DNA of 64,000 nucleotides from Campylobacterales bacterium (GCA_026390115.1 JAPLGO010000012.1:186001-250000), one strand, 5' to 3'; counted from the stretch's first letter, positions 33,536 through 48,527 are shown. A program made the numbers and translations. Notes: generated by a model not told the origin, from the sequence alone.

Positions 33536-34192
33536 ATGTTTATAAAAAAAACAGTATCTCTTGTTATTTTAATCTTTTTGTTATCTACAGCTTTAAGTGC
33601 ACAGGAGAAGAGGATTTATCAAATCGGCAAAAATGTGTATGACAAAATGTGTACGCATGATATAGATTTACGAAATTACTCTACAATTGACGAACTTAAA
33701 AATTCTATCAAAAATGACAATTTATGTAAACCGCTTAAGGAAGATTTGGTAGAGGCACTAAGCACCTATTTGTGGGAAGTAAAGAGAGCTCCGGAGCATG
33801 TGGAGGCTAAAGAGGTTATAGTTGTAAACAAAGATGAAAAATGCCCAATATGTGGAATGTTTGTATATAAATATCCGAAATGGGTTGCACAAATTTTTTA
33901 TAAAGAGAGCAATCTCTCTTTTGATGGTGTGAAAGATTTGATGAAGTTCTATTTAAAAGAGAATCCGACAGCAGAAAAAATTGTAGTAACAGATTATTAC
34001 TCTCAAAAGGCTATAGATGCAAAAACAGCCTATTTTGTTTTGGGCGCTGATATTTATGGTCCTATGGGAAGTGAGTTGATTCCGTTTGAGCATGAAAATG
34101 ATGCGAAGAGTTTTTATATGGATCACCAAGGAAAAAAAATTCTTAAGTTTGAAGAGATTACGACTCAAGATATTGAAAAAATTGATGAATAA
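33536..34192 (+). CDS. NosL-family periplasmic copper-binding protein
   Basis: A signal peptide (MFIKKTVSLVILIFLLSTALSAQ) is followed by an extra N-terminal domain of about 75 residues with two Cys, then a NosL domain with CPICGMFV (CxxCxM copper motif) and the C-terminal part DAKTAYFVLGADIYGPMG. NosL proteins bind Cu(I) and deliver it to nitrous oxide reductase. At 218 aa it is longer than ordinary NosL, and it lacks a lipobox. It is the first gene of a rightward operon with an FtsX/LolD-type ABC module. The sequence upstream (33349-33535) shows no convincing FNR-type box. Confidence 0.82.
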   Translation: MFIKKTVSLVILIFLLSTALSAQEKRIYQIGKNVYDKMCTHDIDLRNYSTIDELKNSIKNDNLCKPLKEDLVEALSTYLWEVKRAPEHVEAKEVIVVNKDEKCPICGMFVYKYPKWVAQIFYKESNLSFDGVKDLMKFYLKENPTAEKIVVTDYYSQKAIDAKTAYFVLGADIYGPMGSELIPFEHENDAKSFYMDHQGKKILKFEEITTQDIEKIDE

Positions 34193-34487
34193 AAAAAGTT
34201 TTTTTCTTTTTTCTTTTTTCTCAACTCTGCTTATTTTTTTGGCTATTGAAATTACATATTTACAGGTTGCAAAAAGCATGAGCGATGAAAAAGTAGAAAA
34301 AAAAATAAGTTTTGTAAAACTTTCGGGGTTTCCTGATTTAGCATTCTATTCAGAGAATCATTATATTAGACATAGAAGTCTGAGTGATACTTTCTCAATT
34401 TATAAAGATGATGGCAGCTTGAGAGAGTATTCTATGGCTACTTACACCATTTCGCATTCACACATAAAGATAAATAATGAAAAATAA
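34185..34487 (+). CDS. Unknown small membrane-anchored protein (100 aa)
   Basis: ATG at 34185 lies inside the end of the NosL-like gene (8-base overlap) and gives a 100-aa protein with an N-terminal transmembrane helix (MNKKSFFLFSFFSTLLIFL) and a periplasmic domain rich in His, Tyr and Ser near its end (YTISHSHIKI). The same frame is open further upstream, but the real start is set by this helix. The stop overlaps the next gene. The family is not recognised; the His-rich end could bind metal, which is inference. Confidence 0.75.
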   Translation: MNKKSFFLFSFFSTLLIFLAIEITYLQVAKSMSDEKVEKKISFVKLSGFPDLAFYSENHYIRHRSLSDTFSIYKDDGSLREYSMATYTISHSHIKINNEK

Positions 34488-35661
34488 AATAAATATATAT
34501 TTGATAGAGTTCGCAATAAATGCAATACTGAGACAAAAATATAAAAGCCTGTTTGTATCTATCGTTTTTATACTTTTAACTTTTTTATTAACTTCTGTTT
34601 TTTTCATAACTAACTCAATAAAATATGAGTTAAACAGTACAGTTGACGCTCTTCCGGAAATTGTAATTCAAAAAACAGAAGCCGGAAGACAGCAAAATAT
34701 AGATGTGGCAGAAGTTGATAAGATACTTGCTGTAAAAGGTGTCAGTGACGCAATTGCAAGGGTATGGGGATATTACTATTTTGAAAATGCGGGTGTAAAC
34801 TTTTCTATTGTCGGAGTGGACAAGTTTGAAAATCAGTACAAAAGCTCTCTTGCAAAAATCGTTGATACCTTTGATCTTGGTGAAGCAGACAGCCCTTTGA
34901 TGGCAATAGGAAAAGGTGTACATGCAATAATGCAGAAAAATTATTATAAAGAGTATTTCAACTTTATAAAAAGCGACGGAACGCTCAAAAAAGTGACGAT
35001 TGCCGGAGTTTTTGACGCGGATACGCAACTTGAGTCAAACGACATGATTGTTATATCAAAAGAGACATTCAGAGAGATTTTTAACATGCCCCAGACCAAG
35101 GCAACAGACATAGTGATAAAAGTTGCAAACTCCAGTGAAATAGCAACGGTAGTTTCAAAACTAAGATTGATGTATCCAAATAGCTCTATAGTCACCAAAG
35201 AGAGTTTAAAGGTCAGTTATCAAAATATTTTCAATTATAAAAGCGGGCTCTTTTTGGCTCTTTTTATCATTTCTCTTTTTACATTTTTTATCGTAATCTA
35301 TGACAAGGTGAGTGGACTCAGCAGTGAAGAGAAGAGAGAGGTCGGCATTTTAAAAGCAATTGGATGGAGAGTCGATGATGTACTGAGGGAGAAGTTTTAT
35401 GAATCATTTATAATTTCATTTTTTTCATATATAGTTGGAGTAGGACTTGCCATGGCATTTGTTTATATATTTCAGGCACCGGTGCTCAGAGATATATTTG
35501 TAGGTTATTCAGAGCTAAAGCCATCATTTGAACTACCGTTTGTTTTTGATATCCAAACACTTTTTCTAGTCTTCTTTTTAAGCGTTCCCATCTACATAGC
35601 CGCAATAATATTCCCCTCATGGAGGGTTGCTACTCTTGAAGCGGACGAGGTAATCAGATAA
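34477..35661 (+). CDS. FtsX/MacB-type ABC permease
   Basis: Four transmembrane helices: one near residues 25-47, then a large periplasmic domain (about 50-260), and three helices at about 262-285, 310-335 and 360-380. This is the FtsX/LolC/MacB topology. EREVGILKAIGWRVDDVL-like residues (here KREVGILKAIGW) before the third helix are typical. Such permeases do not translocate small solutes but act on periplasmic lipoproteins or proteins (Lol, MacB) or by mechanotransmission. Coupled with the ATPase that follows (TAATG overlap). In this neighbourhood it may act on NosL-type lipoproteins. Confidence 0.88.
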   Translation: MKNKINIYLIEFAINAILRQKYKSLFVSIVFILLTFLLTSVFFITNSIKYELNSTVDALPEIVIQKTEAGRQQNIDVAEVDKILAVKGVSDAIARVWGYYYFENAGVNFSIVGVDKFENQYKSSLAKIVDTFDLGEADSPLMAIGKGVHAIMQKNYYKEYFNFIKSDGTLKKVTIAGVFDADTQLESNDMIVISKETFREIFNMPQTKATDIVIKVANSSEIATVVSKLRLMYPNSSIVTKESLKVSYQNIFNYKSGLFLALFIISLFTFFIVIYDKVSGLSSEEKREVGILKAIGWRVDDVLREKFYESFIISFFSYIVGVGLAMAFVYIFQAPVLRDIFVGYSELKPSFELPFVFDIQTLFLVFFLSVPIYIAAIIFPSWRVATLEADEVIR

Positions 35662-36329
35662 TGATAGAATTAAAAAACAGTACAAAAATATATGAGTTGA
35701 ATAGAGTAGATAAAGTTGTTGCCTTGAACGATATCAGTTTGAGCATAAAAGAGGGTGAAGTTGTTGTGTTAAAGGGTGCCAGCGGGAGCGGAAAGAGCAG
35801 TATCCTCTCACTTATCGCAGCTCTGAGCAAGCCTACAAGCGGTGAAGTTATAGTCGATGGCAAAAAAATATCTAAGCTATCCGATAACTTTGCTTCCGTT
35901 TATAGACGGGACAACATAGGCTTTGTATTTCAAAAGTACAATCTTATACCTAGCCTTAGTGTCAGAGATAATATATTGCTTCCTCTTGTTCCACTCAATC
36001 CGGATGCCAAAGATGCAGAGGAAAAACTAGCCCTTGTCATGGATATGTTTCATATAGCGCATAAAGCAGATGCAATAGTAAAGAATCTTTCGGGCGGAGA
36101 GCAGCAGAGAGTTGCTATTGCCAGAGCAAATATCAATAATCCAAAAATTATCTTGGCAGATGAGCCGACTGCAAACTTAGATGAAAAGCTCTCTCTTAGC
36201 TTTATAGAGATAGTTAAATCGTTGAAAGCTTTAAATAAGACTATTGTTATCGCTACACATGACCCACTCTTCTTTAATCTTGATTTTGTAGATAGCGTAG
36301 TAGAGATACACAATGGAATAATAAGTTAA
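35661..36329 (+). CDS. LolD/MacB-type ABC ATPase
   Basis: A 222-aa ATPase with Walker A GASGSGKSS, Q-loop FVFQKYNLIPSLSV, signature LSGGEQQR and Walker B IILADEPTANLD followed by the H-loop (IATHD). LADEPTANLDE is the form typical of the LolD/FtsE/MacB group. It is partner to the permease ending at 35661, whose stop overlaps its start, and its own stop overlaps the start of the following membrane protein. Confidence 0.93.
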   Translation: MIELKNSTKIYELNRVDKVVALNDISLSIKEGEVVVLKGASGSGKSSILSLIAALSKPTSGEVIVDGKKISKLSDNFASVYRRDNIGFVFQKYNLIPSLSVRDNILLPLVPLNPDAKDAEEKLALVMDMFHIAHKADAIVKNLSGGEQQRVAIARANINNPKIILADEPTANLDEKLSLSFIEIVKSLKALNKTIVIATHDPLFFNLDFVDSVVEIHNGIIS

Positions 36330-37288
36330 TGATTCTGTCTCCTGAAGTTTTGACGCTGTTTATTTTAAATGCTTTATTCTCGTTTTTTGCAACTATTGCA
36401 TTTATTTTGAGTGTTAAAATATTTTTAAAATGGGATACGGATTCTACATGTCAAGCACAGTATAGATTAGAAAAACAGAGCTTTCTGACTGCTACAATCA
36501 TAAAATATATTTTCATTATAAAAGTGCCGCTCTTCCTCTTTTTTATTTTTACGCTTGATAAAATTTCGGGACTTCTCACAGGTGCCATGTGTGCGGCAGG
36601 GGTAGTCAATGCCACAACATACGGAACATATTTGGTCCTGCTCAAAATTTTAAACCTATATCTTTTTGCTTACTGGCTTGCTCTTCATAATGAAGATATG
36701 AAGCATGAGCATCAGCCATATACTAAAATAAAGTTTGGAATTTATATAGCGCTATTTTTTCTTCTAATTTCGGAGATAATATTAGAAGGCGTGATGTTTA
36801 AGGCAATAGATATAGAGAAGGTAGTGGATTGTTGCGGAGCAATATATTCAAGCTCTGCCGGCTCATATATATCAGTAATATTTCGTGTAAAAGCATCTCT
36901 GCTTCTGACTCTGTTTTATGGCAACTTCCTGCTAATTACGATTCTTTATTTTTTAAAAAATAAATATATTTTTGCATTGAGTAATGCTTTTTTTATCATA
37001 ATTTCTCTTATAACCCTTATCTCGTTTTTTGGAACATATATTTACCAGCTTCCAACGCACCACTGCCCGTTTTGTTTTTTGCAAAAAGATTACTATTATG
37101 TGGGATATTTTATCTATGTTTTTCTTTTTATAGGTACATTCTATGGTCTGCTGACGGGTCTTTTAAGAACATCCGAAAATGAGATTTCTAAAAACTATAA
37201 AATATCACTCCTATTTAATTTTCTCTATGTTATATTTCTGACATCCTATCCTGTACTGTTTTACATAAAAAATGGTGTGTGGTTATAA
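36329..37288 (+). CDS. Unknown polytopic membrane protein with Cys-pair motifs
   Basis: About eight transmembrane helices in 319 aa. Cysteines cluster in three places near membrane surfaces: GAMCAAG (about residue 88), VDCCGAIYS (about 168) and THHCPFCFLQ (about 246), the last a His-His-Cys-x-x-Cys arrangement. The pattern suggests metal (copper) handling or thiol-disulfide exchange, loosely reminiscent of VKOR/DsbB-like membrane proteins, but I cannot assign a family. It is coupled to the ABC ATPase and followed by a NosL lipoprotein, so it is part of the same module. Confidence 0.78.
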   Translation: MILSPEVLTLFILNALFSFFATIAFILSVKIFLKWDTDSTCQAQYRLEKQSFLTATIIKYIFIIKVPLFLFFIFTLDKISGLLTGAMCAAGVVNATTYGTYLVLLKILNLYLFAYWLALHNEDMKHEHQPYTKIKFGIYIALFFLLISEIILEGVMFKAIDIEKVVDCCGAIYSSSAGSYISVIFRVKASLLLTLFYGNFLLITILYFLKNKYIFALSNAFFIIISLITLISFFGTYIYQLPTHHCPFCFLQKDYYYVGYFIYVFLFIGTFYGLLTGLLRTSENEISKNYKISLLFNFLYVIFLTSYPVLFYIKNGVWL

Positions 37289-37319
37289 AGATGATTTTTA
37301 ATTTAAACGGAGTTATATA

Positions 37320-37775
37320 ATGCTGAAATATAAACTGCTTCTCTCTACCTTTTATTCTTTACTTGTTGTTTCATTATTTGTTGGTTGCAATGAAGAATCT
37401 AAAACTAAAATGGCAGAGGTTCATTGGGACAGGGACATGTGTGCAAGATGTGTAATGGTTATAAGTGACAGAAAAAATTCGATACAAGTGAAAAATCCTG
37501 ATAATGCGAAGACATATATGTTTGATGATATAGGTTGCATGGCTCTTTGGTTTGAAGATGAAAAAATTGAGTGGAAAGATAAAGCTCTTATTTGGATAAC
37601 AGATTCTACTACCGGAGAGTGGATAGATGCAAGAAGTGCATTTTACGATACTGAGAACATTACTCCGATGGCATATGGTTTTTGTGCGCATAAAGTAAAA
37701 GGGAGTATCAAAGAAAATCAAGAAATTATTGATTTTAATGAAGTTCTAAAAAGAGTTGTCAAAATAGGTAGGTAG
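37320..37775 (+). CDS. NosL-family lipoprotein
   Basis: Lipobox VSLFVGC sets Cys23 or thereabouts as the lipid-modified residue. The NosL domain then shows MCARCVM (CxxCxM copper site), the YMFDDIGCMALWF core and ENITPMAYGF near the end. The length of 151 aa is typical. It closes the rightward ABC operon after a 31-bp gap with its own ribosome site. It probably receives or delivers Cu(I) at the inner- or outer-membrane face. It resembles the lipoprotein NosL at 39815-40276 in the opposing operon. Confidence 0.88.
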   Translation: MLKYKLLLSTFYSLLVVSLFVGCNEESKTKMAEVHWDRDMCARCVMVISDRKNSIQVKNPDNAKTYMFDDIGCMALWFEDEKIEWKDKALIWITDSTTGEWIDARSAFYDTENITPMAYGFCAHKVKGSIKENQEIIDFNEVLKRVVKIGR

Positions 37776-37935: not shown

Positions 37936-38460
37936 CTAATAAAACTTATGTATCTCTTCCATAATATTTTGAAATTCTATATCTTCACCTTTTGATTTTA
38001 AAAAATTAATGAGATATTTCTTACTCTCCTCAACCCCTTCACTCTTTTGTATCTCTAAAAGTTTTGCATATAAGTCGGATATGACGGCTATAACATGTTT
38101 TGAAATAGATTTTCTTGAAGCTGTATAACCTATGATTTTTCCACTGTCTGCATCTTTTCTTGATTCAAATTCAGTAAATATCCAGTAATATCTGCCATCT
38201 TTGGCTAGGTTTTTCACAACCGCATTAATGTTTTTTCCCTGAGATATGGTTTGCCATAAGAGCTTAAAGACAACCTTTGGCATATCCGGATGACGAATTA
38301 TGCTGTGGGGCTGCCCTAGCAACTCCTCTTTGGAGTATCCGCAAATCTCTACAAAATAATCGTTGCAAAAAGTGATTCTTCCTTTTTCGTCTGTTTCGCT
38401 CACTATGTATCTTTTTGGGTCTAGTTGTATCTCTTCATCTTTTGGTATTGGTTTGTTCAT
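37936..38460 (-). CDS. PAS-domain protein (Aer/CetB-like)
   Basis: The preferred start is ATG 38460, seven bases after AAAGGA; an ATG at 38484 lies within the previous gene. The PAS domain (about 20-130) carries the Aer-type pattern DYFVEICGYSKEELLG, PHSIIRHPDMPK and YYWIFTEFE, which in Aer/CetB proteins binds FAD and senses redox. No HAMP or signalling domain follows; the last 45 residues are helical. It is the last gene of the nos operon, so its expression should follow N2O respiration. It may pair with a separate chemotaxis or signalling protein, as CetB does with CetA; no such partner is adjacent. Confidence 0.85.
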   Translation of the reverse strand: MNKPIPKDEEIQLDPKRYIVSETDEKGRITFCNDYFVEICGYSKEELLGQPHSIIRHPDMPKVVFKLLWQTISQGKNINAVVKNLAKDGRYYWIFTEFESRKDADSGKIIGYTASRKSISKHVIAVISDLYAKLLEIQKSEGVEESKKYLINFLKSKGEDIEFQNIMEEIHKFY

Positions 38461-38470
38461 TTTTTTTCCT

Positions 38471-38965
38471 TTAGATATTTCCATTTAAGAGTTTTATGAG
38501 AGCATCTGATATTTCATTAAGATGAAGTATCCTTTTTCCATTGTGCTCTTTTGCAAAATCTTTAGCCGCATCATAACTTGCAAATGCGACTAAATCATCC
38601 CCCGCAGGTGAAGTTACATTGCTCCCATAGACATAAAAAGCTCCTTTTGCGTCTGTTGGTTTCATTGTTGCAAAATCTGTAACGAGTATCTCTTTAAAAT
38701 CATCTTCACTTTTTACACCGATATTATCCCATTTCCCAGGTCTAAGATAAAATTCAATCATGGATTTAGGACTAGAAAAATAAATCTCTTTACCATTACT
38801 CAAATTAACTTTTGAGACCCATTTTGGCTCTTTATAAACTTTAAATTGTCTTACTAAACATGTGGTGTTTTGGTCATAATTCATAGTGTATGAATCGCCT
38901 GCTATGGCAAGCGTAGCAAAAGTGAAAGTGGATGCCAAAAGCATGTTTGCAATAAATTTTTTCAT
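38471..38965 (-). CDS. NosL-family periplasmic protein lacking the CxxCxM motif
   Basis: A cleavable signal peptide (MKKFIANMLLASTFTFATLAIAG) and a NosL-like domain recognisable by SSPKSMIEFYLRPGKW, ILVTDFATMKPTDAKGAFYV and SPAGDDLVAFAS. Only one Cys is present (TTCLVR), and neither the CxxCxM copper motif nor a lipobox remains. It may bind copper by other ligands or serve as a partner of the lipoprotein NosL. It lies 12 bp after nosY and is followed by the PAS gene. Sequence details resemble the longer NosL-like protein at 33536. Confidence 0.78.
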   Translation of the reverse strand: MKKFIANMLLASTFTFATLAIAGDSYTMNYDQNTTCLVRQFKVYKEPKWVSKVNLSNGKEIYFSSPKSMIEFYLRPGKWDNIGVKSEDDFKEILVTDFATMKPTDAKGAFYVYGSNVTSPAGDDLVAFASYDAAKDFAKEHNGKRILHLNEISDALIKLLNGNI

Positions 38966-38977
38966 GTAAACTCCTTG

Positions 38978-39805
38978 TTAAACTAAATCTTTTTTTTCAA
39001 ATATTTTGAAACCTAAAAAGGCAAAAATCAATCCTATGGAAAATGGATAAACTACGGATAAAAGAACAAATATGCCTTGGCTCATAGAATCAAGTATATA
39101 AAATGCGACTGGACCCATAACGGTAAGTTCTGGATCAAAAAGTGAAATTGCTGCAACTCTAAAAATTTCCATCGGATTAATCATGGCTAAAAATAGGATG
39201 AGCTGTGGATTAAATCTCTGTTGCATCATGAGTGAAATAAGGGCTATATCAATAAATGCAAGTAAAAATATCCAAATAAAGAATGCAATTCCAAGAGCGA
39301 CTTCAGAAGATTTAACAAAGGAGGAGATGAAAAATGCAATTCCTAAAAATGCACTTGAGAGTGCAAAAAGAAGACCTGTGTATAAAAAGAAAATGCTCCA
39401 TGGGATAGCTGCACCTTTGATTGCACCGTAAAGAACTGCAATGACCATAGCAAAAAAAACAGGGAGATAGACTGTGATAAATCTTCCAATAATTTTCCCC
39501 CAATAGTATTGTTTAAGGGATATAGGAAAAGAGAGCATGTACTCTAAGATATGGTTGTCTCTATCTCCCGAGATAGATCTTACCGTTGTAATAAGTATGA
39601 AAATCGGAAGTATTACGATAGTAATCTGAATATACATCAGTAAAAGTCTGCTCAAACCACTAAACCCCATGACCTGCGATTCTGTAACACCAGCTATAAA
39701 AAACAGAGCTATAAGCCCTCCGAAGACAAGAGAATAGACTAAAAACCATTTAGCTCTTATAGACTCTTTTAAATCCAAATATGCGATTAAATATAAATTT
39801 TTCAA
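38978..39805 (-). CDS. nosY: NosY, ABC permease of nitrous oxide reductase maturation
   Basis: Six transmembrane helices in 275 aa, with the second preceded by the charged segment ISGDRDNHILEYMLSFP typical of ABC-2 type permeases of the NosY group. With NosF it forms the transporter that, together with periplasmic NosD, helps build the CuZ centre (sulfur or copper supply). The gene follows nosL after 9 bp. The order nosF-nosL-nosY differs from the more common nosD-F-Y order. Confidence 0.9.
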   Translation of the reverse strand: MKNLYLIAYLDLKESIRAKWFLVYSLVFGGLIALFFIAGVTESQVMGFSGLSRLLLMYIQITIVILPIFILITTVRSISGDRDNHILEYMLSFPISLKQYYWGKIIGRFITVYLPVFFAMVIAVLYGAIKGAAIPWSIFFLYTGLLFALSSAFLGIAFFISSFVKSSEVALGIAFFIWIFLLAFIDIALISLMMQQRFNPQLILFLAMINPMEIFRVAAISLFDPELTVMGPVAFYILDSMSQGIFVLLSVVYPFSIGLIFAFLGFKIFEKKDLV

Positions 39806-39814
39806 TATATTCCC

Positions 39815-40276
39815 CTAAAGTCCAAGTATCTGTTTTCTAATTTTTGGATTTGCCATATGCTCACCCCTTAACATTTTGATTGCCACTTCTCTGAAATCTA
39901 TCGTATTTTCAATTATATTTTCATTTGCAGAAAATCCGTAGGACATTGGAGTTTTTTCATTTAATTTGTAGTGAGCATCGTAAGCACTTATATATTTTTT
40001 TGAGTCATTAGTAAACACTTTTGCTTCAGCTTTTGTCAGGTCAATACTGTTTTGATGAGCCCATAAAATCATGCATCCTATATCATCGAAATAGTTTATA
40101 GTTCCATTAGTATTTAGCGTTGCCGAGAAAATTCTTGATTTATGCAACTCCATGTGGCACTTTGGACATACTTTTATATCACTGCTTAAGTTGCCTAATG
40201 ATGAATTTTCAGATGAACCACAGCCTGCTGCAATAAAAAAAAGAGAAGAAAAAAGAAAAATGTTAAATTTTTTCAT
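39815..40276 (-). CDS. nosL: NosL copper chaperone lipoprotein
   Basis: The start at ATG 40276 (MKKFNIFLFSS) lies inside the end of nosF (14-base overlap) and gives a lipoprotein signal with lipobox IAAGC. The mature protein carries CPKCHM (CxxCxM), NYFDDIGCMILWA and TPMSYGF. NosL delivers Cu(I) to apo-NosZ in the periplasm. The length of 153 aa fits. It is the canonical copy among four NosL-family proteins in the window, being embedded between nosF and nosY. Confidence 0.92.
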   Translation of the reverse strand: MKKFNIFLFSSLFFIAAGCGSSENSSLGNLSSDIKVCPKCHMELHKSRIFSATLNTNGTINYFDDIGCMILWAHQNSIDLTKAEAKVFTNDSKKYISAYDAHYKLNEKTPMSYGFSANENIIENTIDFREVAIKMLRGEHMANPKIRKQILGL

Positions 40277-40901
40277 CTGAGACAACTTTTCCAAGGTCCA
40301 TATATATCTGTCGATTGACTAACTCTTTTACCTCTTCAAGGCGGTGGGTTACGAATAACAGTACTTTTTCATCTTCATTTTGTTTTAAAAGTCTGTAAAA
40401 ATCATCTCTTGCCTGAGGGTCAAGATTTGCAGTAGGTTCATCGTAGATGATGATGTCAGATTTTTTTGCTAAGCTAATGGCAATAAGCATCTTCTGTTTC
40501 ATTCCTCCGCTGAGTTTAAAAAACGATTTATTCAAATTTGATTTAAGATCAAGTTTCATCTCGTTGGCATAATGTAAAATTAATTCTTTATCTACATCTG
40601 CACTTGTGCAAACGTAATGCATAAGTTCATCAAGACTCAGTTTGATTGGTGGAGGAAGTTGTGGTACAAAACTTATATTTTTTAAAACTTTGACGCGCTC
40701 TTTTATAGGGTTTAATCCATCTATAAGAACCTCACCGCTATCTGGATGGTAATATCCAAGAATTGAGCGAATGAGTGTCGTCTTTCCGGCACCGTTGGCG
40801 CCCATGAGCGCAATCGATTCATTTTTATGAAACTCACAACTTACACTGTCGAGTGAGAGGTGTGAACCGAATTTTTTAGTTAATTGAGATACTTTTATCA
40901 T
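40263..40901 (-). CDS. nosF: NosF, ABC ATPase
   Basis: A 212-aa ATPase with Walker A GANGAGKTT, signature LSGGMKQK and Walker B DIIIYDEPTANLDP with the H-loop VTHRLEE. It powers NosY in assembly of the copper-sulfide centre of NosZ. Slightly shorter than most NosF (about 300 aa in clade I), as in other Campylobacterota. It starts 4 bp after nosH and overlaps nosL. Confidence 0.93.
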   Translation of the reverse strand: MIKVSQLTKKFGSHLSLDSVSCEFHKNESIALMGANGAGKTTLIRSILGYYHPDSGEVLIDGLNPIKERVKVLKNISFVPQLPPPIKLSLDELMHYVCTSADVDKELILHYANEMKLDLKSNLNKSFFKLSGGMKQKMLIAISLAKKSDIIIYDEPTANLDPQARDDFYRLLKQNEDEKVLLFVTHRLEEVKELVNRQIYMDLGKVVSDEKI

Positions 40902-40905
40902 CTTT

Positions 40906-41811
40906 TTACACCAAACTTTTTAATCTAAAGTCGAAGTTCAGGGCATCCGTATGGCAAACATCTATACATCTGCCGCAGAGAGTACAGTCATTGCCTGTAA
41001 TGTACTCTCTGGTTATCCCTTTTTCTTCTCTTTGTTTATCGTATTTCGCTTTTACAATCTCTAAAACTTGATTCTCAAAACAGACATCATGACACACCAT
41101 GCAGTGGTCGCAGTTATCATTCCACTCAACTCTTAGTGCTGAGATTTTCCCAAGGTATCCATAAGTAGTTCCAATAGGGCATATATAAGTACACCAAGCA
41201 CGACGAGAAAAGAAAACTTCCATGGCAAATACAGCAACTACCCAAATAAAAGCAATACTCCAACCATATGCAATCATCCTGCTCAAAATTCCGACAACAT
41301 TGAATGTTTCAAAAACAAGGTATCCGCTTGAAAAAGATAAAATTAAAAAAACTGCCCAAAACAGATGTCTCACTCTGTGGTCAAACTTTCTGCTTTTAAT
41401 TATCTTTTTTGCTACCAATGCATTGTGCAGTTTTTCACCGATTTCACTTAAAATTCCGTAGGGACATACCCAAGCGCAATAAGTTCTTCCGCCAACAAGA
41501 AGATAGATAATTACAATTGTTATCGTACCAATAATAATATTGACAGGCATGTGGAAGGTTGCTAGAAACATCTCCATAGATGTATAAGGGTCAATGAGAT
41601 GAAATCCTAAAAACCTCGAACCATTGAGGGTTCCTTCCAACATCTGTAAATCTATAAAAAATGATAAGAAAAAGAGCAGATGGATAGAAAGGACTAAAAT
41701 CCATCTTTTCATTCTGTAACTAAATTTTGACTTTCCCTCTTTGGTTGTATCAAAAAAAGTGGACCAAAAAGTTGTTTTTTGTATGGTTTCTCTATTGTTA
41801 TACTTATCCAT
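40906..41811 (-). CDS. nosH: NosH, NapH-like membrane iron-sulfur protein
   Basis: Four to five transmembrane helices are interspersed with polyferredoxin motifs. Two membrane-loop CxxxCP motifs (YCAWVCPYG and WCTYICPIG) precede two 4Fe-4S clusters at the C-terminus (CDHCMVCHDVCF and CTLCGRCIDVCH). It is homologous to NapH and, with NosG, is thought to pass electrons from menaquinol to the cytochromes c that feed clade II NosZ. The length of 301 aa is typical. Gene order C1-C2-H-F matches the Wolinella succinogenes nos cluster. Confidence 0.9.
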   Translation of the reverse strand: MDKYNNRETIQKTTFWSTFFDTTKEGKSKFSYRMKRWILVLSIHLLFFLSFFIDLQMLEGTLNGSRFLGFHLIDPYTSMEMFLATFHMPVNIIIGTITIVIIYLLVGGRTYCAWVCPYGILSEIGEKLHNALVAKKIIKSRKFDHRVRHLFWAVFLILSFSSGYLVFETFNVVGILSRMIAYGWSIAFIWVVAVFAMEVFFSRRAWCTYICPIGTTYGYLGKISALRVEWNDNCDHCMVCHDVCFENQVLEIVKAKYDKQREEKGITREYITGNDCTLCGRCIDVCHTDALNFDFRLKSLV

Positions 41812-41837
41812 TGCGACTCCGTTTCATTTACAATAAT

Positions 41838-42350
41838 TTATTTGTTTTGTGTTTCTTTGAGTCGCTCAGGAAATGCCCCGATTTCATTGGCAAATTTTCT
41901 TAAATCAGCATCTTCCAAGTTTAGCAGTAATCCTTTCATAACAAGATTCTCTTTTCTTCCGGCTTTAAAGTCACTCAAACTTTGATAAATTTTATCTGCA
42001 CTTTGACCAAAGAGCTTAGGACCCATCATAGGTTTGCCATTTTGAAAGCCTGAGCCATCTCCGCCATGACAAGAAGAACATTTACTTTTATACTCTTGAC
42101 TTACATTAAATGCTCCGGCATTTCCTGCCTTATTTCTTAATGCACTTAGTTCATCCATCTCTTTTGCTCTGTCATCTTTTTCTACGGGAATTGATGTCGC
42201 GGATGTTGATGCTTGTTGTACAGCAGCATTTCCAAAATCTTTAATTACTTTGGAATGTTCACCACCTTGATATGCATGACCCCCCATATAAGTAACTGCC
42301 ATTAAACCGACTACAGAGAGCGTTAAAAACCCTACAATAAAATTCTTCAT
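41838..42350 (-). CDS. nosC2: NosC2, membrane-anchored monoheme cytochrome c
   Basis: An N-terminal hydrophobic anchor (residues 3-25) and a class I cytochrome c domain with one heme motif CSSCH (about residue 87) and the Met-containing PMMGPKLFG region supplying the sixth ligand. At 170 aa it corresponds to NosC2 of the clade II nos clusters, an electron carrier between NosG/H and cNosZ. A linker of about 55 residues separates anchor and heme domain. It is 2 bp from nosC1. Confidence 0.87.
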   Translation of the reverse strand: MKNFIVGFLTLSVVGLMAVTYMGGHAYQGGEHSKVIKDFGNAAVQQASTSATSIPVEKDDRAKEMDELSALRNKAGNAGAFNVSQEYKSKCSSCHGGDGSGFQNGKPMMGPKLFGQSADKIYQSLSDFKAGRKENLVMKGLLLNLEDADLRKFANEIGAFPERLKETQNK

Positions 42351-42352
42351 AT

Positions 42353-42985
42353 TTATTTCCTCATATCTTTAATTGCGATATTAAATTGATATATTTCTTC
42401 TGCTAACTCTTTAATCTCTTCATCACTCATCATTTTAATGAGGTCACGCATCAGAACATTTGTTTTTTCACCACTTTTAAATTGTGCTATTTTATTAAAA
42501 ATATAATCAGCATCTCTCCCCAAAAGCGAAGGTCCAATGATGCCGTTCGCATAATCATTGTGGCAAGCGGAACATTTCGACATATACTTTTTGCTGAGAT
42601 TGTTTACAATCATAGAAATTTGAACCTCTTCATAAGGACTTCTGACATGTAAATTTGCATCAAGTGCAGTTCTTGGTATGGTCGATACATCTTTATTCTC
42701 AGGTTCTGCATTTTCATTAGATGCACTTTTAGTATTGTAGTCGTAATAGTAAGATTTGCTTTGATTTGCATCAATCTCTTTTTCTTTTACTTTTGTTTCA
42801 TGTGAATTGTCATTTATTACAACTTCTATTTTTGGAGTAGCTGTTGTTTTTGTAACGGCAGAACTTTCATTTTTTTCATTTTGTTCTTTATGCTTATCGC
42901 TGCATCCACTTAAAAAAGTAAAAAGTAAAAGACCTACTACATACAATAAACTTTGATGCTTAAATTGTGAACTTCTCAAAAACAT
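42353..42985 (-). CDS. nosC1: NosC1, monoheme cytochrome c lipoprotein
   Basis: Lipobox FLSGC near residue 28 indicates lipid anchoring. A long low-complexity Asn/Glu/Lys-rich linker (about 30-110) leads to a cytochrome c domain with CSACH and IIGPSLLGRD. At 210 aa it corresponds to NosC1. It is probably a flexible tethered electron carrier for NosZ. It follows nosG after 2 bp and shares its C-terminal domain layout with NosC2 (YIFNKIAQFKSG against YQSLSDFKAG), implying duplication. Confidence 0.87.
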   Translation of the reverse strand: MFLRSSQFKHQSLLYVVGLLLFTFLSGCSDKHKEQNEKNESSAVTKTTATPKIEVVINDNSHETKVKEKEIDANQSKSYYYDYNTKSASNENAEPENKDVSTIPRTALDANLHVRSPYEEVQISMIVNNLSKKYMSKCSACHNDYANGIIGPSLLGRDADYIFNKIAQFKSGEKTNVLMRDLIKMMSDEEIKELAEEIYQFNIAIKDMRK

Positions 42986-42987
42986 TT

Positions 42988-43737
42988 TTAACTCCTTTCC
43001 TTTTTATTTGTGTAGAAATCTTCATAACGCATTCTCGGTTTAACAACAATAGAAGGTATATTGGTTGGGCAAACTTCCTGACATGCTCCGCAGCCAATGC
43101 ATCCGTCATAAATTTCCGGAGTCATTCCACCGTTGGTATGTGGAACCATAGCAATAGCTCCTATAGGGTTTGGAATAGGACACATGTCGGCACACAATGT
43201 ACATTGCTTACCTTCAAACTCATCCAGTTTAGTGAGTAGTTTAGTTTCCAACTCATTTATATGGCGTACAGAATTGGTAAATGTATGCATTTCGTCATTG
43301 TAACCTTTAGGTATCGCAGTTTTAGAAATAGCCAAACAAGTGTTTGGAAACTCCAATACTGCTATGCCCATGTGGATATCTTCAGGTTTTTCGCAGTGAT
43401 GGTCCAGCGCACCGCTTGGACAAGCAAGAACGCAGGGAACAGCACTGCATGCGTAGCAACCTCTCTCGTTTGCATCAATGTAGGGTGTTCCCACACCGTG
43501 ACCTTTTGCCATGTCTGACAATTTTATAGAGTGATAAGGACATACCTGCAGGCACTGACCGCATTTTATACATAGAGCCAAAAACTTTTTTTCATCTACT
43601 GCACCGGGAGGTCTTAGTCTATTTTCTGCACCGATTGCATGGGGGCTAAAAACCATTCCACCTCCAAGCACAAGACCTAATATGCCAAGTGTAGAATATT
43701 TTACAAATTCTCTTCTCTCTGTTTGTACTGTTTGCAT
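42988..43737 (-). CDS. nosG: NosG, NapG-like polyferredoxin with Tat signal
   Basis: The N-terminus ERREFVKYSTLG is a twin-arginine signal, so the protein is exported folded with its clusters. Four 4Fe-4S motifs follow: CIKCGQCLQVCP, CYACSAVPCVLACP, CTLCADMCP and CIGCGACQEVCP. It is homologous to NapG and works with NosH in quinol-linked electron delivery to NosZ. The length of 249 aa is typical. It starts 1 bp after nosD. Confidence 0.92.
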   Translation of the reverse strand: MQTVQTERREFVKYSTLGILGLVLGGGMVFSPHAIGAENRLRPPGAVDEKKFLALCIKCGQCLQVCPYHSIKLSDMAKGHGVGTPYIDANERGCYACSAVPCVLACPSGALDHHCEKPEDIHMGIAVLEFPNTCLAISKTAIPKGYNDEMHTFTNSVRHINELETKLLTKLDEFEGKQCTLCADMCPIPNPIGAIAMVPHTNGGMTPEIYDGCIGCGACQEVCPTNIPSIVVKPRMRYEDFYTNKKERS

Positions 43738-43738
43738 T

Positions 43739-44956
43739 TTATCCCTCTATCCTAACGATTGGTTTTTCATCTTCAAGTAAAAAAAGAGGTTTGCTAAATG
43801 GGGCTAATTTAGCTAAAAAATTAAGAAGTGAAATGACCGGAGAACCATAAAAAAACTTTACATCAGGGTTGTAAATCCAAAGTTGATCCGCATATTGATA
43901 AACTTTATGAGAAGTGTCCCCAATGTTGTCGCCATTTTTATCAAAGCCCTCATAATTATCCCAGTAGTTCCCTACTATCTCATTTTTTTCTGCTATATTT
44001 TTTGCACTATCATTTGCAACATCTTCAATATTTCCCATGATAACATTGTTTTTAATAATGTTATTTTCACAAAGAGAGTGAAAATGCATGGCTTCTGAAT
44101 TATAGAGAATCTTATTTCCTGTAATCCAGTTATTTGTTTCCGGCTCAAAGGGTGAATAATCAATATACATGCCTTGTGCACAATAGATGATGGTATTGTC
44201 TTTGAGTGTAAAATTTGTGACTTCCTTAAGTCCTATTCCCATGCCCGTAGTACCTAAAGAACTTTTAATAACATTCCCTTCGGCGATAGTGTCCTTGGAA
44301 TACATAAAAAATATACCGACAGAGTTAAATTCATAGTGATTGTTTTTTACTATGTTTTTGCCTGCATGCATAAAATGGAGTGAGTATCTGCAATATTCAC
44401 TACGATTTTCAACTATTTCATTTCCATAGGAATACCAGACAACTGCATCACGAGATTTTATTAAAGAGTTATTTTTTATGATATTATCATTGCTATACCA
44501 AAGTCTCAGTCCATCTCCTCTCAGACCAAGATCAAGGTCTTTAGAAGTTATTTTGTTATGAGATATGATAGAGTTGTTTATCATTTGAAGGTCAATTCCA
44601 AAAAGGCAATCCTCTATGGTGCAGTTGCTGATTTCACACTGTTTGCCTTCAACCATAGAGATAGCAGAATCCAAATTTTCATGTCTGTCGCCACTTCCTC
44701 TAATCTTCAGGTTTTTTAGGGATATAAAAGAGCCTTTTGTAGTTATAACCGTACCACTTTGCTCACCGTCAATAATGACACCGTCTTCTATTCCAATAAG
44801 AGTAAGTGGTTTATTAATAGTGATTTTTCCTTTATAAACTCCTGCAGAGAGTTTTAAAATGGAACCCTCCGGTGCATTGTTAATTGCTTCCTGCAATGTG
44901 TTTGCACCGAGTGTGGTAAAAAATAGTAGAAAAATAATAAACAAAATTCTAAACAT
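43739..44956 (-). CDS. nosD: NosD, periplasmic copper-site assembly protein
   Basis: A signal peptide (MFRILFIIFLLFFTTLGA) precedes a right-handed beta-helix of parallel repeats (CASH-domain periodicity of Asn and Ile, residues 20-330). The C-terminal part contains EIVGNYWDNYEGFDKNGDNIGD, which is diagnostic of NosD. The protein works with NosF/NosY to assemble the CuZ cluster in NosZ. The length of 405 aa is normal. It lies between nosB and nosG. Confidence 0.94.
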   Translation of the reverse strand: MFRILFIIFLLFFTTLGANTLQEAINNAPEGSILKLSAGVYKGKITINKPLTLIGIEDGVIIDGEQSGTVITTKGSFISLKNLKIRGSGDRHENLDSAISMVEGKQCEISNCTIEDCLFGIDLQMINNSIISHNKITSKDLDLGLRGDGLRLWYSNDNIIKNNSLIKSRDAVVWYSYGNEIVENRSEYCRYSLHFMHAGKNIVKNNHYEFNSVGIFFMYSKDTIAEGNVIKSSLGTTGMGIGLKEVTNFTLKDNTIIYCAQGMYIDYSPFEPETNNWITGNKILYNSEAMHFHSLCENNIIKNNVIMGNIEDVANDSAKNIAEKNEIVGNYWDNYEGFDKNGDNIGDTSHKVYQYADQLWIYNPDVKFFYGSPVISLLNFLAKLAPFSKPLFLLEDEKPIVRIEG

Positions 44957-44976
44957 TTACACCCTTGATTTATAAT

Positions 44977-45759
44977 TTATTTTTCTATCTCTTTGAATGC
45001 TTTTTGCTTCGCAAAAAAAGCAAGTAAACTTAATAAACTGATTGCAACTATCATATAAAATCCAATTGTTGGATAAGAGTGCGTTGTAAACTGAGCAATT
45101 TTGCCATCGCCAAAAACAGTTGGCATAAAAGGTTTTATTTTAAATGCTCCCCAGTCATGCAGATTGTGACCAAACCAATAGAGCCAGTAGGAGTAATCAG
45201 CTATAAACAAGAGAGGAAGAGATGCCGGAACAAGCATAACATAGTTGAATATTTTATTGTTATATGCAATAAAGTAAATCATTCCCAAAGAGAGAGCTAA
45301 AAGTGCATAAATGCCGATTTCTCTCTCCAATGTACCACCAACCCACATAGGATCCATGCCGACATAGTGATTGATTGTATTCATCTCATGAATCTCTCCG
45401 CTGAAACCATCAAAATGAAAATAGACCGGTATTCCCTCCGGAAACGCATCTTTTGGATAATTTGGAGCTTCAAGCGAAACAGCCCATATTGGTAGTGAAG
45501 CAACTCCAATTTCAGATGCAGAGCGAATCATTTCGTCTAAGTTGTTTAGTGCTTCTTTCGGGGTAGAGATACTTTTGTATCTACCAATATTATATATATT
45601 CCAAACCTTTTTAGATAAGAGTGATACTTCATCAATTTTCCCCTCATCAATTTTATTTAATGTTGAGTGAAATGAAATCATTGGAAAAGTGAAAGCGAAT
45701 GTTAAAATAATCAAAGCTAATAGAGCGAAAATTCTGGCTTTTAGAATACTTGTATGCAT
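44977..45759 (-). CDS. nosB: NosB-like membrane protein
   Basis: The start at ATG 45759 is set by AAAGGA five bases upstream; an ATG at 45834 lacks one. The 260-aa protein has an N-terminal transmembrane helix, a periplasmic domain of about 120 residues (with VYFHFDGFSGEIHEMN), and four further helices. Its position directly after nosZ and before nosD matches nosB of Wolinella succinogenes, a conserved Campylobacterota nos gene of unproven function. The periplasmic domain has several His and Met but no Cys. Confidence 0.8.
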   Translation of the reverse strand: MHTSILKARIFALLALIILTFAFTFPMISFHSTLNKIDEGKIDEVSLLSKKVWNIYNIGRYKSISTPKEALNNLDEMIRSASEIGVASLPIWAVSLEAPNYPKDAFPEGIPVYFHFDGFSGEIHEMNTINHYVGMDPMWVGGTLEREIGIYALLALSLGMIYFIAYNNKIFNYVMLVPASLPLLFIADYSYWLYWFGHNLHDWGAFKIKPFMPTVFGDGKIAQFTTHSYPTIGFYMIVAISLLSLLAFFAKQKAFKEIEK

Positions 45760-45866
45760 GGTTGTCCTTTTATAAATTAAAAATTCAAGATTATTAAAAT
45801 CTTCAACTTTGAATTTAGTAGTATTGTATGTCAATAATAATTAATATAAGCTTAGTTAATATTAAT

Positions 45867-45906
45867 TAAGAGGGAGAGCACCATAAAATGATACTCTCCT
45901 CTTTTT
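45867..45906. terminator. Hairpin between nosZ and nosB
   Basis: AAGAGGGAGAG and CTCTCCTCTT pair with one bulge across a 14-base loop, about 25 bp after the nosZ stop. On the nosZ-coding strand it is followed by an A/T-mixed tail rather than a clean U-run; on the plus strand five T follow. It may cause partial termination or stabilise the nosZ transcript, giving more NosZ than accessory proteins. The rest of the 170-bp spacer holds only AT-rich sequence. Confidence 0.55.
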
Positions 45907-45929
45907 AGAACTAAAAAGTGTACTTATTC

Positions 45930-48527
45930 TTAGAATAAGTTTGCATTTTCATCTACCCATTTGAGGTATTCAATAATGTTTTTGACTTCTTGCTCATTCA
46001 TATGTTGATTTGGCATTTTTAGATTAAAGTAATCAATCATACCTTTTACATATGGATCTGCATACATTTTTTCCGGATTCATAACGAAATCCTTAACCCA
46101 TTTATCAGCATTCTCATGTCTTTGTAATACACCTGTTAAGTCTGGACCTGAAGATACTTTACCAATAACATGGCATCCACTACAACCGCCTTCACCAAAT
46201 GTTTTTTGACCATTTTCTGCAGCAGGTGACTGTTTAGTGGCAATAATTCGAACGAGTGCATCTTTTGCTCTAATTCCAACGTCCGCCGTTTTAACCATTA
46301 ATTGCCAAATCATATTTTCATATAAAACAGCTTTCTCTAAATCACCTGCTTTCACAGCTTCATCTGAGAGTTTTTTCTGAGCAGGAATTTGTCCATATTG
46401 GTCAAAAGCATCTGTAACAAGATCTGCTACAACTTTGTGATCAGCAAATTTTTTCTCTTTTAAGAATTTAACAACACTCTGAATAACTGCATCCGTTGCA
46501 GCATTTACAGCAACAGTTTTGTCATATTCAGCTTTAAGTTGTTCCGGAGTCATCGTTTGCATTTTTAATTTTTGAGCACTAACATATTTCTTGCTAGGAT
46601 CTTTAATCATCATGTAGCCCATCATTTCTAAGTGAAGAGCAGAACAAAATTCTGTACAGTAGTATGGGAAAGTCCCTTCGATATCAGCTTTAAATTTAAT
46701 TTCAACAGTTTCACCAGGTTCAACTGAAGCATGAACATTAAAGTGATCTACAGTAAATCCATGAGTTTCATCTTGAGCTCTCTCTAGATTTGTCATATAC
46801 ATCGTAACTTCATCACCCTTGTTTACAGTGATTCTCTCAGGATTAATATGAGATCTTACTAATGTAGCATAAACAGTAACTTTATTGCCTTTTCGTTCAA
46901 TTCTCTCTTGTCCAGCTAAAGTTTTACCAACATGTTGCTCACCAGTTTTACTATTAGTTCCCATTGTATATCTAACTTCTGGGTCTAGTTTACTTGCTCT
47001 GATTGCAACAGCGTTGTGAGGCTCACCTAAAGGTAAAGGCATGTCCACAAGTAAATCCATTTTTTTACCACTAATATCAATTAACTGATGATTTTGTGGG
47101 TGAAGAGGACCAACATTTTGAAATCTATCAATAGCCAACTTGTTTAAAGCAATGATATATTTGCCCTGAGGATCTCGAGTCTCACTTTCCATTCCACATA
47201 AGTGACCAATGTTATAGTGAACATTTTCTTTATCTAAAACTTTAAGAGTTTTATAGTTCCATTTAACAACTTGACTATCAACATAGAGTGAAGTAAAAAT
47301 TTCGCCATCTATATTTGAATACTGGCTATGTAACGGCCCCAGTCCTAGTTCAACCTGTCCATGTAAAGCTGATTTCATATCAAGAATTGGAATCCCGTAT
47401 GGATCTTTTCCCGCATATTTTTTATCTTTGATAAGATTCTGAATCTTTTCAAAACTAAATACAGATGCATGCGTGTCGAGCTTACCACAAACAGTAATAT
47501 AATTACCATCAGGAGAAACATCTACACCATGTGGAGATTTTGGCTCTGGAATTAAGAAGAGTGCATCATTTTTGATAGCTACTTCCATAGGAATAATGTC
47601 ATGTCCATTGACAACTTTTACATTTTTCTTATCTTTTGCTAATTCTGCTAACTTTCTCCAGTTGTAAACATGTAAAAAGTCAGTATCATTTCTACTCATA
47701 CCGGCTTCATTTGGCGGCATTCCTACTTCAATTCCACCTGTGTACATTTCAGAGTTAAATGAGTTTGTAAAGCCCCATCCATCACTTACCCCTTTGCCTG
47801 AGTCACTTAAATCTTGCATATATGGAGGTAATTCAAGTGTAAAAGATTCTTTTTGATTGATTCTACCTTTTGTAGTATCAAATTTCCATAATGTCACACC
47901 ACCGCGATATGCTTCTTTATATTCTTCAATCGGATGATAAGTATCATCAAACGGAGTAGCATACTGCGCAGCTTCTAAGATATATTCAGAGTTTGGAGTA
48001 AAGAAAGCTCCTCCGTGCGCTGATTTAAATATAGGGTTTACAACAATTTGCTTCGTCTCAAAATCTTTTAAATCAATAATCGCAATACGAGGATTAGCTT
48101 TATCATTGATAGCTAACCATTTACCGTCATATTTGCCATCTTTTTCTGAAAGAGCAGGGTGGTGAGTGTCTCCCCAGTTAATTTCTCTTCCTCTAATATT
48201 ACCTTGTCTAAGTACAGCTAATGAATCTACATCAAAGCCATATCCTTGCCAAGGTTCTGGCGTAAATACAGCGATATATTTTAAGATTCTCATGGATGGA
48301 ACACCATAAACAATCACTTGTCCACTCTGTCCACCTGAACTAAATACTACATAATCATCTTTAACACCAGAAGGGTTATAGGTTTTTGCAGCACGAATTA
48401 CATCGTTTTCTGTTAAGCCTCTGGCTTTCATTACTTTTTCTAACTCACCGCCATCAGCAACTGCAAGCGTTGCTAAAAGTGAAGTGCCTAGAATAAGTGA
48501 AGAAAGCTTACTAAAATGCTCATTCAT
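45930..48527 (-). CDS. nosZ: Nitrous oxide reductase, clade II with C-terminal cytochrome c (cNosZ)
   Basis: Reduces N2O to N2 in the periplasm, the final step of denitrification. A Sec-type signal peptide (SSLILGTSLLATLAVA; no twin arginine) marks the clade II form. The seven-bladed propeller carries CuZ ligands in DTHHPALS, HGGAFF, SPHGVDVSPDG and GPLHSQYS. The cupredoxin CuA site is complete: THGF, then CTEFCSALHLEMMGYM at about residue 620. A class I cytochrome c domain (CSGCH near residue 780) is fused at the C-terminus, as in Wolinella. The length of 865 aa is typical. It is the first gene of the leftward operon, with an FNR-type promoter about 100 bp upstream and a hairpin downstream. 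Confidence 0.98.
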   Translation of the reverse strand: MNEHFSKLSSLILGTSLLATLAVADGGELEKVMKARGLTENDVIRAAKTYNPSGVKDDYVVFSSGGQSGQVIVYGVPSMRILKYIAVFTPEPWQGYGFDVDSLAVLRQGNIRGREINWGDTHHPALSEKDGKYDGKWLAINDKANPRIAIIDLKDFETKQIVVNPIFKSAHGGAFFTPNSEYILEAAQYATPFDDTYHPIEEYKEAYRGGVTLWKFDTTKGRINQKESFTLELPPYMQDLSDSGKGVSDGWGFTNSFNSEMYTGGIEVGMPPNEAGMSRNDTDFLHVYNWRKLAELAKDKKNVKVVNGHDIIPMEVAIKNDALFLIPEPKSPHGVDVSPDGNYITVCGKLDTHASVFSFEKIQNLIKDKKYAGKDPYGIPILDMKSALHGQVELGLGPLHSQYSNIDGEIFTSLYVDSQVVKWNYKTLKVLDKENVHYNIGHLCGMESETRDPQGKYIIALNKLAIDRFQNVGPLHPQNHQLIDISGKKMDLLVDMPLPLGEPHNAVAIRASKLDPEVRYTMGTNSKTGEQHVGKTLAGQERIERKGNKVTVYATLVRSHINPERITVNKGDEVTMYMTNLERAQDETHGFTVDHFNVHASVEPGETVEIKFKADIEGTFPYYCTEFCSALHLEMMGYMMIKDPSKKYVSAQKLKMQTMTPEQLKAEYDKTVAVNAATDAVIQSVVKFLKEKKFADHKVVADLVTDAFDQYGQIPAQKKLSDEAVKAGDLEKAVLYENMIWQLMVKTADVGIRAKDALVRIIATKQSPAAENGQKTFGEGGCSGCHVIGKVSSGPDLTGVLQRHENADKWVKDFVMNPEKMYADPYVKGMIDYFNLKMPNQHMNEQEVKNIIEYLKWVDENANLF

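Follow-up and report, generated by a model that had tools for sequence, protein, structure and literature searches.

Six consecutive open reading frames (ORFs), termed P1 to P6, were analyzed in a 64,000-nucleotide (nt) window of genomic DNA from a Campylobacterales bacterium (GCA_026390115.1 JAPLGO010000012.1:186001-250000). All six lie on the + strand, span positions 33536-37775, and are faced by a clade II nos cluster that includes the gene for nitrous oxide (N2O) reductase, NosZ. The host genome, 2.64 Mb in size, was placed by its named relatives and gene content as a Sulfurimonas-like member of the Campylobacterota. An earlier, sequence-only reading of this DNA (the original prediction) had described a tightly packed six-gene operon for handling copper proteins or NosL lipoproteins in support of N2O reductase. 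The ORFs and overlaps were verified: P1/P2 overlap by 8 nt, P2/P3 by 11 nt, and P3/P4 and P4/P5 by 1 nt each, and a gap of 31 nt separates P5 from P6. The gene order is far above chance expectation because the same order recurs in dozens of relatives.

Gene content of the six-gene locus

The features of the locus are as follows, with amino acid lengths given as aa and transmembrane helices as TM.

33536..34192, +, P1, periplasmic NosL-family protein of 218 aa with CPICGM (PF05573, E value 8.4e-34)
34185..34487, +, P2, protein of 100 aa with a single N-terminal membrane anchor (by sequence reading) and PDLA...RHRS; 57 relatives
34477..35661, +, P3, type VII ATP-binding cassette (ABC) permease of 394 aa with a predicted FtsX/LolC/LolE/MacB/HrtB fold (PF02687, E value 1.4e-13)
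35661..36329, +, P4, LolD/FtsE-like ATPase with intact motifs (ABC_tran, E value 3e-36)
36329..37288, +, P5, eight-TM protein of 319 aa with a predicted periplasm-facing Cys/Met/His set (AlphaFold model, positive-inside pattern)
36581..36592, +, P5 motif GAMC (residues 85-88), loop TM2-3, invariant in a 111-sequence alignment
36830..36835, +, P5 motif CC (residues 168-169), loop TM4-5, invariant in the same alignment
37058..37075, +, P5 motif HxCPxC (residues 244-249), loop TM6-7, invariant in the same alignment
37320..37775, +, P6, NosL-like predicted lipoprotein of 151 aa with CxxCxM (CARCVM) (sub-threshold PF05573, E value 0.002)
38471..48527, −, clade II nos cluster: NosZ, B, D, G, C1, C2, H, F, a NosL-like lipoprotein, Y and NosL (ORFs; Pfam for NosL and NosY)

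The AlphaFold model of P5 (mean predicted local distance difference test score (pLDDT), 88.8) contains eight long helices, and the motif-bearing loops 2-3, 4-5 and 6-7 all share one side of the membrane. This side is predicted to be periplasmic because the number of lysines plus arginines per residue is low in the motif loops and high in the others. Residues C88, C168, C169, H244, C246, P247 and C249 were 100% conserved across the alignment, and position 245 varied; P5 carries five invariant cysteines plus Met87 and His244. The CC (168-169) and HHCPFC (244-249) motifs that had been noted in a polytopic membrane protein are, accordingly, real and conserved. P5 matched no Pfam or NCBIfam family, and a profile search of PDB sequences returned nothing. 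A fold search of the PDB yielded nothing below an E value of 1; the matches above it were generic helical bundles that covered TM1-4. Such an absence does not establish a new fold. No significant Foldseek match linked P5 to DsbB or VKOR, and the VIA comparison rows mostly covered TM1-4. No P5 was found on plasmids.

P3 has the topology of the FtsX fold, with one TM followed by a periplasmic domain and then three TMs (AlphaFold model; mean pLDDT, 82), and Pfam gave a weak MacB_PCD match in addition to FtsX. The best Foldseek matches included LolE (E value, 6.5e-15), MacB (E value, 1.6e-13) and HrtB. In VIA comparisons, P3 aligned with LolE over 370 residues (Z 22.3; root-mean-square deviation (rmsd), 6.5 Å), with HrtB over 329 residues (Z 19.1; rmsd, 6.0 Å) and with MacB over 344 residues (Z 17.8; rmsd, 10.3 Å). 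The catalytic motifs of P4 are intact, namely Walker A (GASGSGKS), the signature (LSGGE) and Walker B (ILADEPTANLD). Judged by sequence and predicted structure, P3 and P4 belong to the type VII ABC superfamily (FtsX/MacB/LolCE). The assumption that FtsX/LolD-type machines do not act on small solutes fails as a general rule, since the haem exporter HrtBA is one of the closest folds to P3.

The family calls made earlier stood, with P1 assigned to NosL, P3 to FtsX and P4 to ABC_tran by Pfam, and P6 giving a sub-threshold match to NosL. Against PF05573, P1 scored 117 bits and P6 18.9 bits, the cut-off being 24. The Cu(I) chaperone NosL carries CXXCXM in clade II (PMC6530538); P1 (CPICGM) and P6 (CARCVM) both contain this motif. 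CxxCGM was kept in 73/73 relatives of P1, some of which are about 365 aa long; one such 365-aa relative matches NosL over two stretches. Among the relatives of P6, 36 of 44 carry CxxCxM. P6 also has a lipobox-like stretch up to Cys23, as read from the sequence, and no lipobox was found in P1. P2 matched no Pfam or NCBIfam family; it had been described as a small His-rich membrane protein and is indeed small and anchored, but its conserved feature is PDLA...RHRS and not a stretch rich in His.

Two neighboring genes were also recorded. A 182-aa PAS-domain-like protein (by sequence reading) is encoded at 37936-38484 (−) between the two convergent clusters, and its family occurs near P5 in 14 loci. 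The final gene of the nos cluster (38471-38965, −) is NosL by Pfam yet lacks CxxCxM, as do 31/31 relatives examined.

Distribution and linkage to nos and mcc genes

To describe the distribution of the module, 200 genomes of the order, including this one, were sampled. P5 was present in 95/200 genomes and the P3 permease in 93/200; among the 199 other genomes, P5 was found in 94, P3 in 92 and both in 91. The nosZ gene was detected in 58/94 genomes with P5 compared to 22/105 without it (odds ratio 6, p = 5e-9), but p-values here overstate the evidence because related genomes were treated as independent. NosL was found in 92/94 genomes with P5 and in 24/105 without it, an association that is partly built in because P1 itself is a NosL protein. 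In 36/94 genomes with P5, some of them fragmented assemblies, nosZ was undetected. The suggested test of whether this gene order co-occurs with clade II nosZ gave an enrichment, often with collinear genes, and not an exclusive relationship. In one genome, a TAA stop splits nosZ in the assembly (G174:C15:18915-21492).

Physical linkage to nos genes was frequent. P5 and nosZ shared one large contig in 19 genomes, and in 10 of these they lay within 25 kb of each other, compared to an expected 0.6. In loci L164, L165, L166, L143, L142 and L144, the module forms a same-strand 3' extension of the nos operon, with the collinear order nosZ-B-D-G-C1-C2-H-F-(NosL-like)-Y-L-P1-P2-P3-P4-P5-(P6). P1 is absent at its collinear position in L142 and L144, and the later part of this arrangement is visible in L115 and L163. 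The module also lies between nosF and nosY in L120 and L124 and after nosF in L139. Elsewhere in the genus, it occupies a PrmC/M48-peptidase site (both names by sequence reading) far from nos. On a P5 tree from a quick, unfinished search, the nos-linked label changed 18 times, with 15 changes forced by well-supported branches, which indicates that the linkage was formed or broken many times. These results agree with the proposal of a NosL-linked copper-handling machine apart from NosF/NosY, given that P3 is of type VII and not ABC-2 and that P3-P5 travel with NosL and nosZ, collinear with nos in many genomes.

The surroundings of the module vary in other respects. In G181 (L113:9551-14052), the module is separated from nos by genes for a Crp-like regulator, a multihaem cytochrome and a multicopper oxidase. 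In L116, L118 and L119, the module comes after genes read from the sequence as ExbB/ExbD/TonB-like and as a two-component system, which hints at metal uptake linked to TonB.

A divergent branch of P5, with approximately 31-36% identity to the P5 of the window, is located in another respiratory operon. At these loci, an octahaem cytochrome with seven CXXCH motifs and one CX15CH is encoded upstream, followed by NrfC/NrfD-like and CcsBA-like genes; we take this gene set to be the mcc sulfite reductase operon with MccA. P5 was present in 17/17 genomes of the close mccA clade and lay within 14 kb of mccA in 16/17. MccA has been listed as a cuproenzyme (PMC7558416). Service to N2O reductase alone, as first envisaged, is contradicted by the 16 copies in the mcc operon and by the module genomes in which nosZ was undetected. 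Sulfide supply for CuZ was considered as the module role and rejected, since MccA clusters also carry the module. To our knowledge, the MccA site has no CuZ-like sulfide, and yet the module is shared with NosZ, which argues for copper rather than sulfide as the common factor.

Other observations were made on these loci. A second MccA clade (L150, L151 and L152) has no CX15CH, is paired with a 6-haem cytochrome and is without the ABC/NosL module. The non-haem cysteines of MccA failed as a predictor of module presence, being conserved also in the three members examined of the module-free clade. The tree label "mcc" of L059 was spurious, as its neighbors are only 26-36% NrfC/NrfD-like matches without MccA. 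An HCxGMCGG membrane protein follows P5 and a NosL-like gene in L093, L098, L099, L102, L105, L117, L139, L145, L146, L157, L167 and L168, mostly in the divergent P5 clade.

Proposed role of the module and rival explanations

A general copper role of the module is well supported because it is linked to two unrelated periplasmic copper enzymes, keeps near-constant company with NosL and has an invariant Cys/Met/His set in P5. We consider it probable (roughly 60%) that the operon is an ATP-driven, envelope-located copper-handling module for NosZ, MccA and at least one further client. Most likely, the module is a copper-delivery accessory common to several respiratory copper enzymes and is not specific to N2O reductase. 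We infer that copper is the cargo, and likewise the direction of its transfer, the role of P5 and the formation of a complex.

In the proposed mechanism, P1 and P6 would be NosL-type carriers that bind Cu(I) via CxxCxM, and P3/P4 would convert ATP hydrolysis to motion of the periplasmic domain in the manner of LolCDE or MacB. P5 would be the membrane partner of P3/P4, its periplasmic Cys, Met and His residues passing Cu(I) on or keeping it reduced, and P2 may be a small anchored adaptor. Acting together, these proteins would load NosL-type carriers with Cu(I) or make them release it, in the service of respiratory copper enzymes of the periplasm, the presumed clients being NosZ here, MccA in the sister branch and at least one more in genomes without both. 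A more specific version, which we put forward only tentatively, is that a type VII ABC motor and P5, as an eight-TM Cu(I) relay whose family, and perhaps also fold, has not been seen before, charge NosL in a step common to at least two unrelated enzymes, NosZ and MccA.

Several observations weigh against a copper-handling module for these enzymes. Neither nosZ nor mccA was detected in 27/94 genomes with P5, and 14 of the 27 are near-complete; these genomes call for an unknown client or for a general role. At least one genome outside those 14, G105, carries nos genes that run off a contig end. A multicopper oxidase was considered as the missing client but showed no association with the module (p = 0.42). 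Conversely, there were 22 nosZ genomes without P5, and the module was found in 0/7 genomes of the second MccA clade (47-52% identity), although the non-haem Cys 397 and 493 are kept in 3/3 members examined. The module is thus not strictly required for either enzyme. In addition, the invariant Cys pairs of P5 would also suit thiol-disulfide chemistry.

This last point leads to the main rival explanation, a thiol-redox role of P5. A DsbB-, VKOR- or DsbD-like P5 would maintain NosL cysteines, target-enzyme cysteines or copper itself in the reduced state, leaving copper transfer to NosL alone. Such a role fits the CC and HxCPxC pairs, which lie in loops predicted to be periplasmic, as well as the HCxGMCGG protein found downstream of the module in 12 loci; two of these 12 proteins proved to be DsbD_2. 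However, this scheme leaves the ABC pair without an obvious function, no thioredoxin is encoded among the six genes, and the fold search of P5 gave no significant match, a result that is itself inconclusive; we regard a thiol-redox role as unlikely. It is more doubtful still that the operon is a general copper tolerance or export module lying near nos and mcc genes only incidentally. Such a module would account for the copies in genomes without nosZ or mccA, and G181 has a multicopper oxidase gene between the module and nos, but the lack of a multicopper oxidase association across the genomes and the non-random linkage to nos and to mcc speak against it.

Handling of NosL lipoproteins, as the original prediction proposed, is not favored. 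In this explanation, P3/P4 would act on the NosL-like lipoprotein P6 by extracting or sorting it, in the fashion of LolCDE, in keeping with LolE and LolC being among the closest folds to P3 and with the lipobox-like signal on P6. However, P3 scored only 31.7 bits on the curated LolCE equivalog (cut-off, 362.45), and a separate LolC/E-like permease, one of several further FtsX proteins in the host genome, scored 238.3 bits; as this permease is likewise under the cut-off, the distance from the cut-off counts more than the cut-off itself. Many copies of the module have no same-strand P6 beside P5, the module has a single permease and not two, and P1 is without a lipobox. P5 and its cysteines would also be left unexplained, and lipoprotein handling is very improbable on these grounds.

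If the copper-handling module is real, clade II NosZ and MccA would have a common copper-supply step, with a second ABC module beside NosDFY. The P5 family would gain a defined function, which could help to explain enzyme metallation under copper scarcity. N2O reductase is the biological sink of a potent greenhouse gas.

Relation to known systems

The closest functional analogue of the module is NosDFY-NosL, in which an ABC ATPase and permease likewise serve a periplasmic enzyme together with Cu(I) chaperones of the NosL type. The two differ in the permease, as NosY is of the ABC-2 type (ABC2_membrane_2 by Pfam), whereas P3 matches FtsX and is of type VII. The module is additional to NosDFY because the facing nos cluster already has NosD, NosF and NosY. 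LolCDE, MacB and HrtBA resemble the module in the fold of P3 and in the P4 ATPase, but the module has one permease, no MacA in the operon, NosL partners and, in P5, an added eight-TM Cys protein. A single permease, LolF, is also used by some bacteria instead of the LolC/LolE pair.

In architecture, the module comes closest to the Campylobacter Cj1658-1665/FetMP-Fls iron system (P19), which comprises a periplasmic metal protein, a membrane protein, permeases and an ATPase. The Cj1658-1665 permeases are of the FtsX type. This cluster differs in having two permeases, two thioredoxins, an Ftr1-family permease and P19. No FTR1 permease, P19 or thioredoxin was found among the six genes, and an FtrD-like domain (PF10080) was found neither in P5 by Pfam nor in the host genome. 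The substrates of the Cj1658-1665 permeases are unknown (PMC6083913). A five-gene insertion comprising an ABC permease, an ATP-binding protein and hypothetical genes was described in the nos clusters of Sulfurospirillum cavolei in 2016 (PMC4794192). It was reported as additional predicted genes, without a function or wider context, and is very probably the same module.

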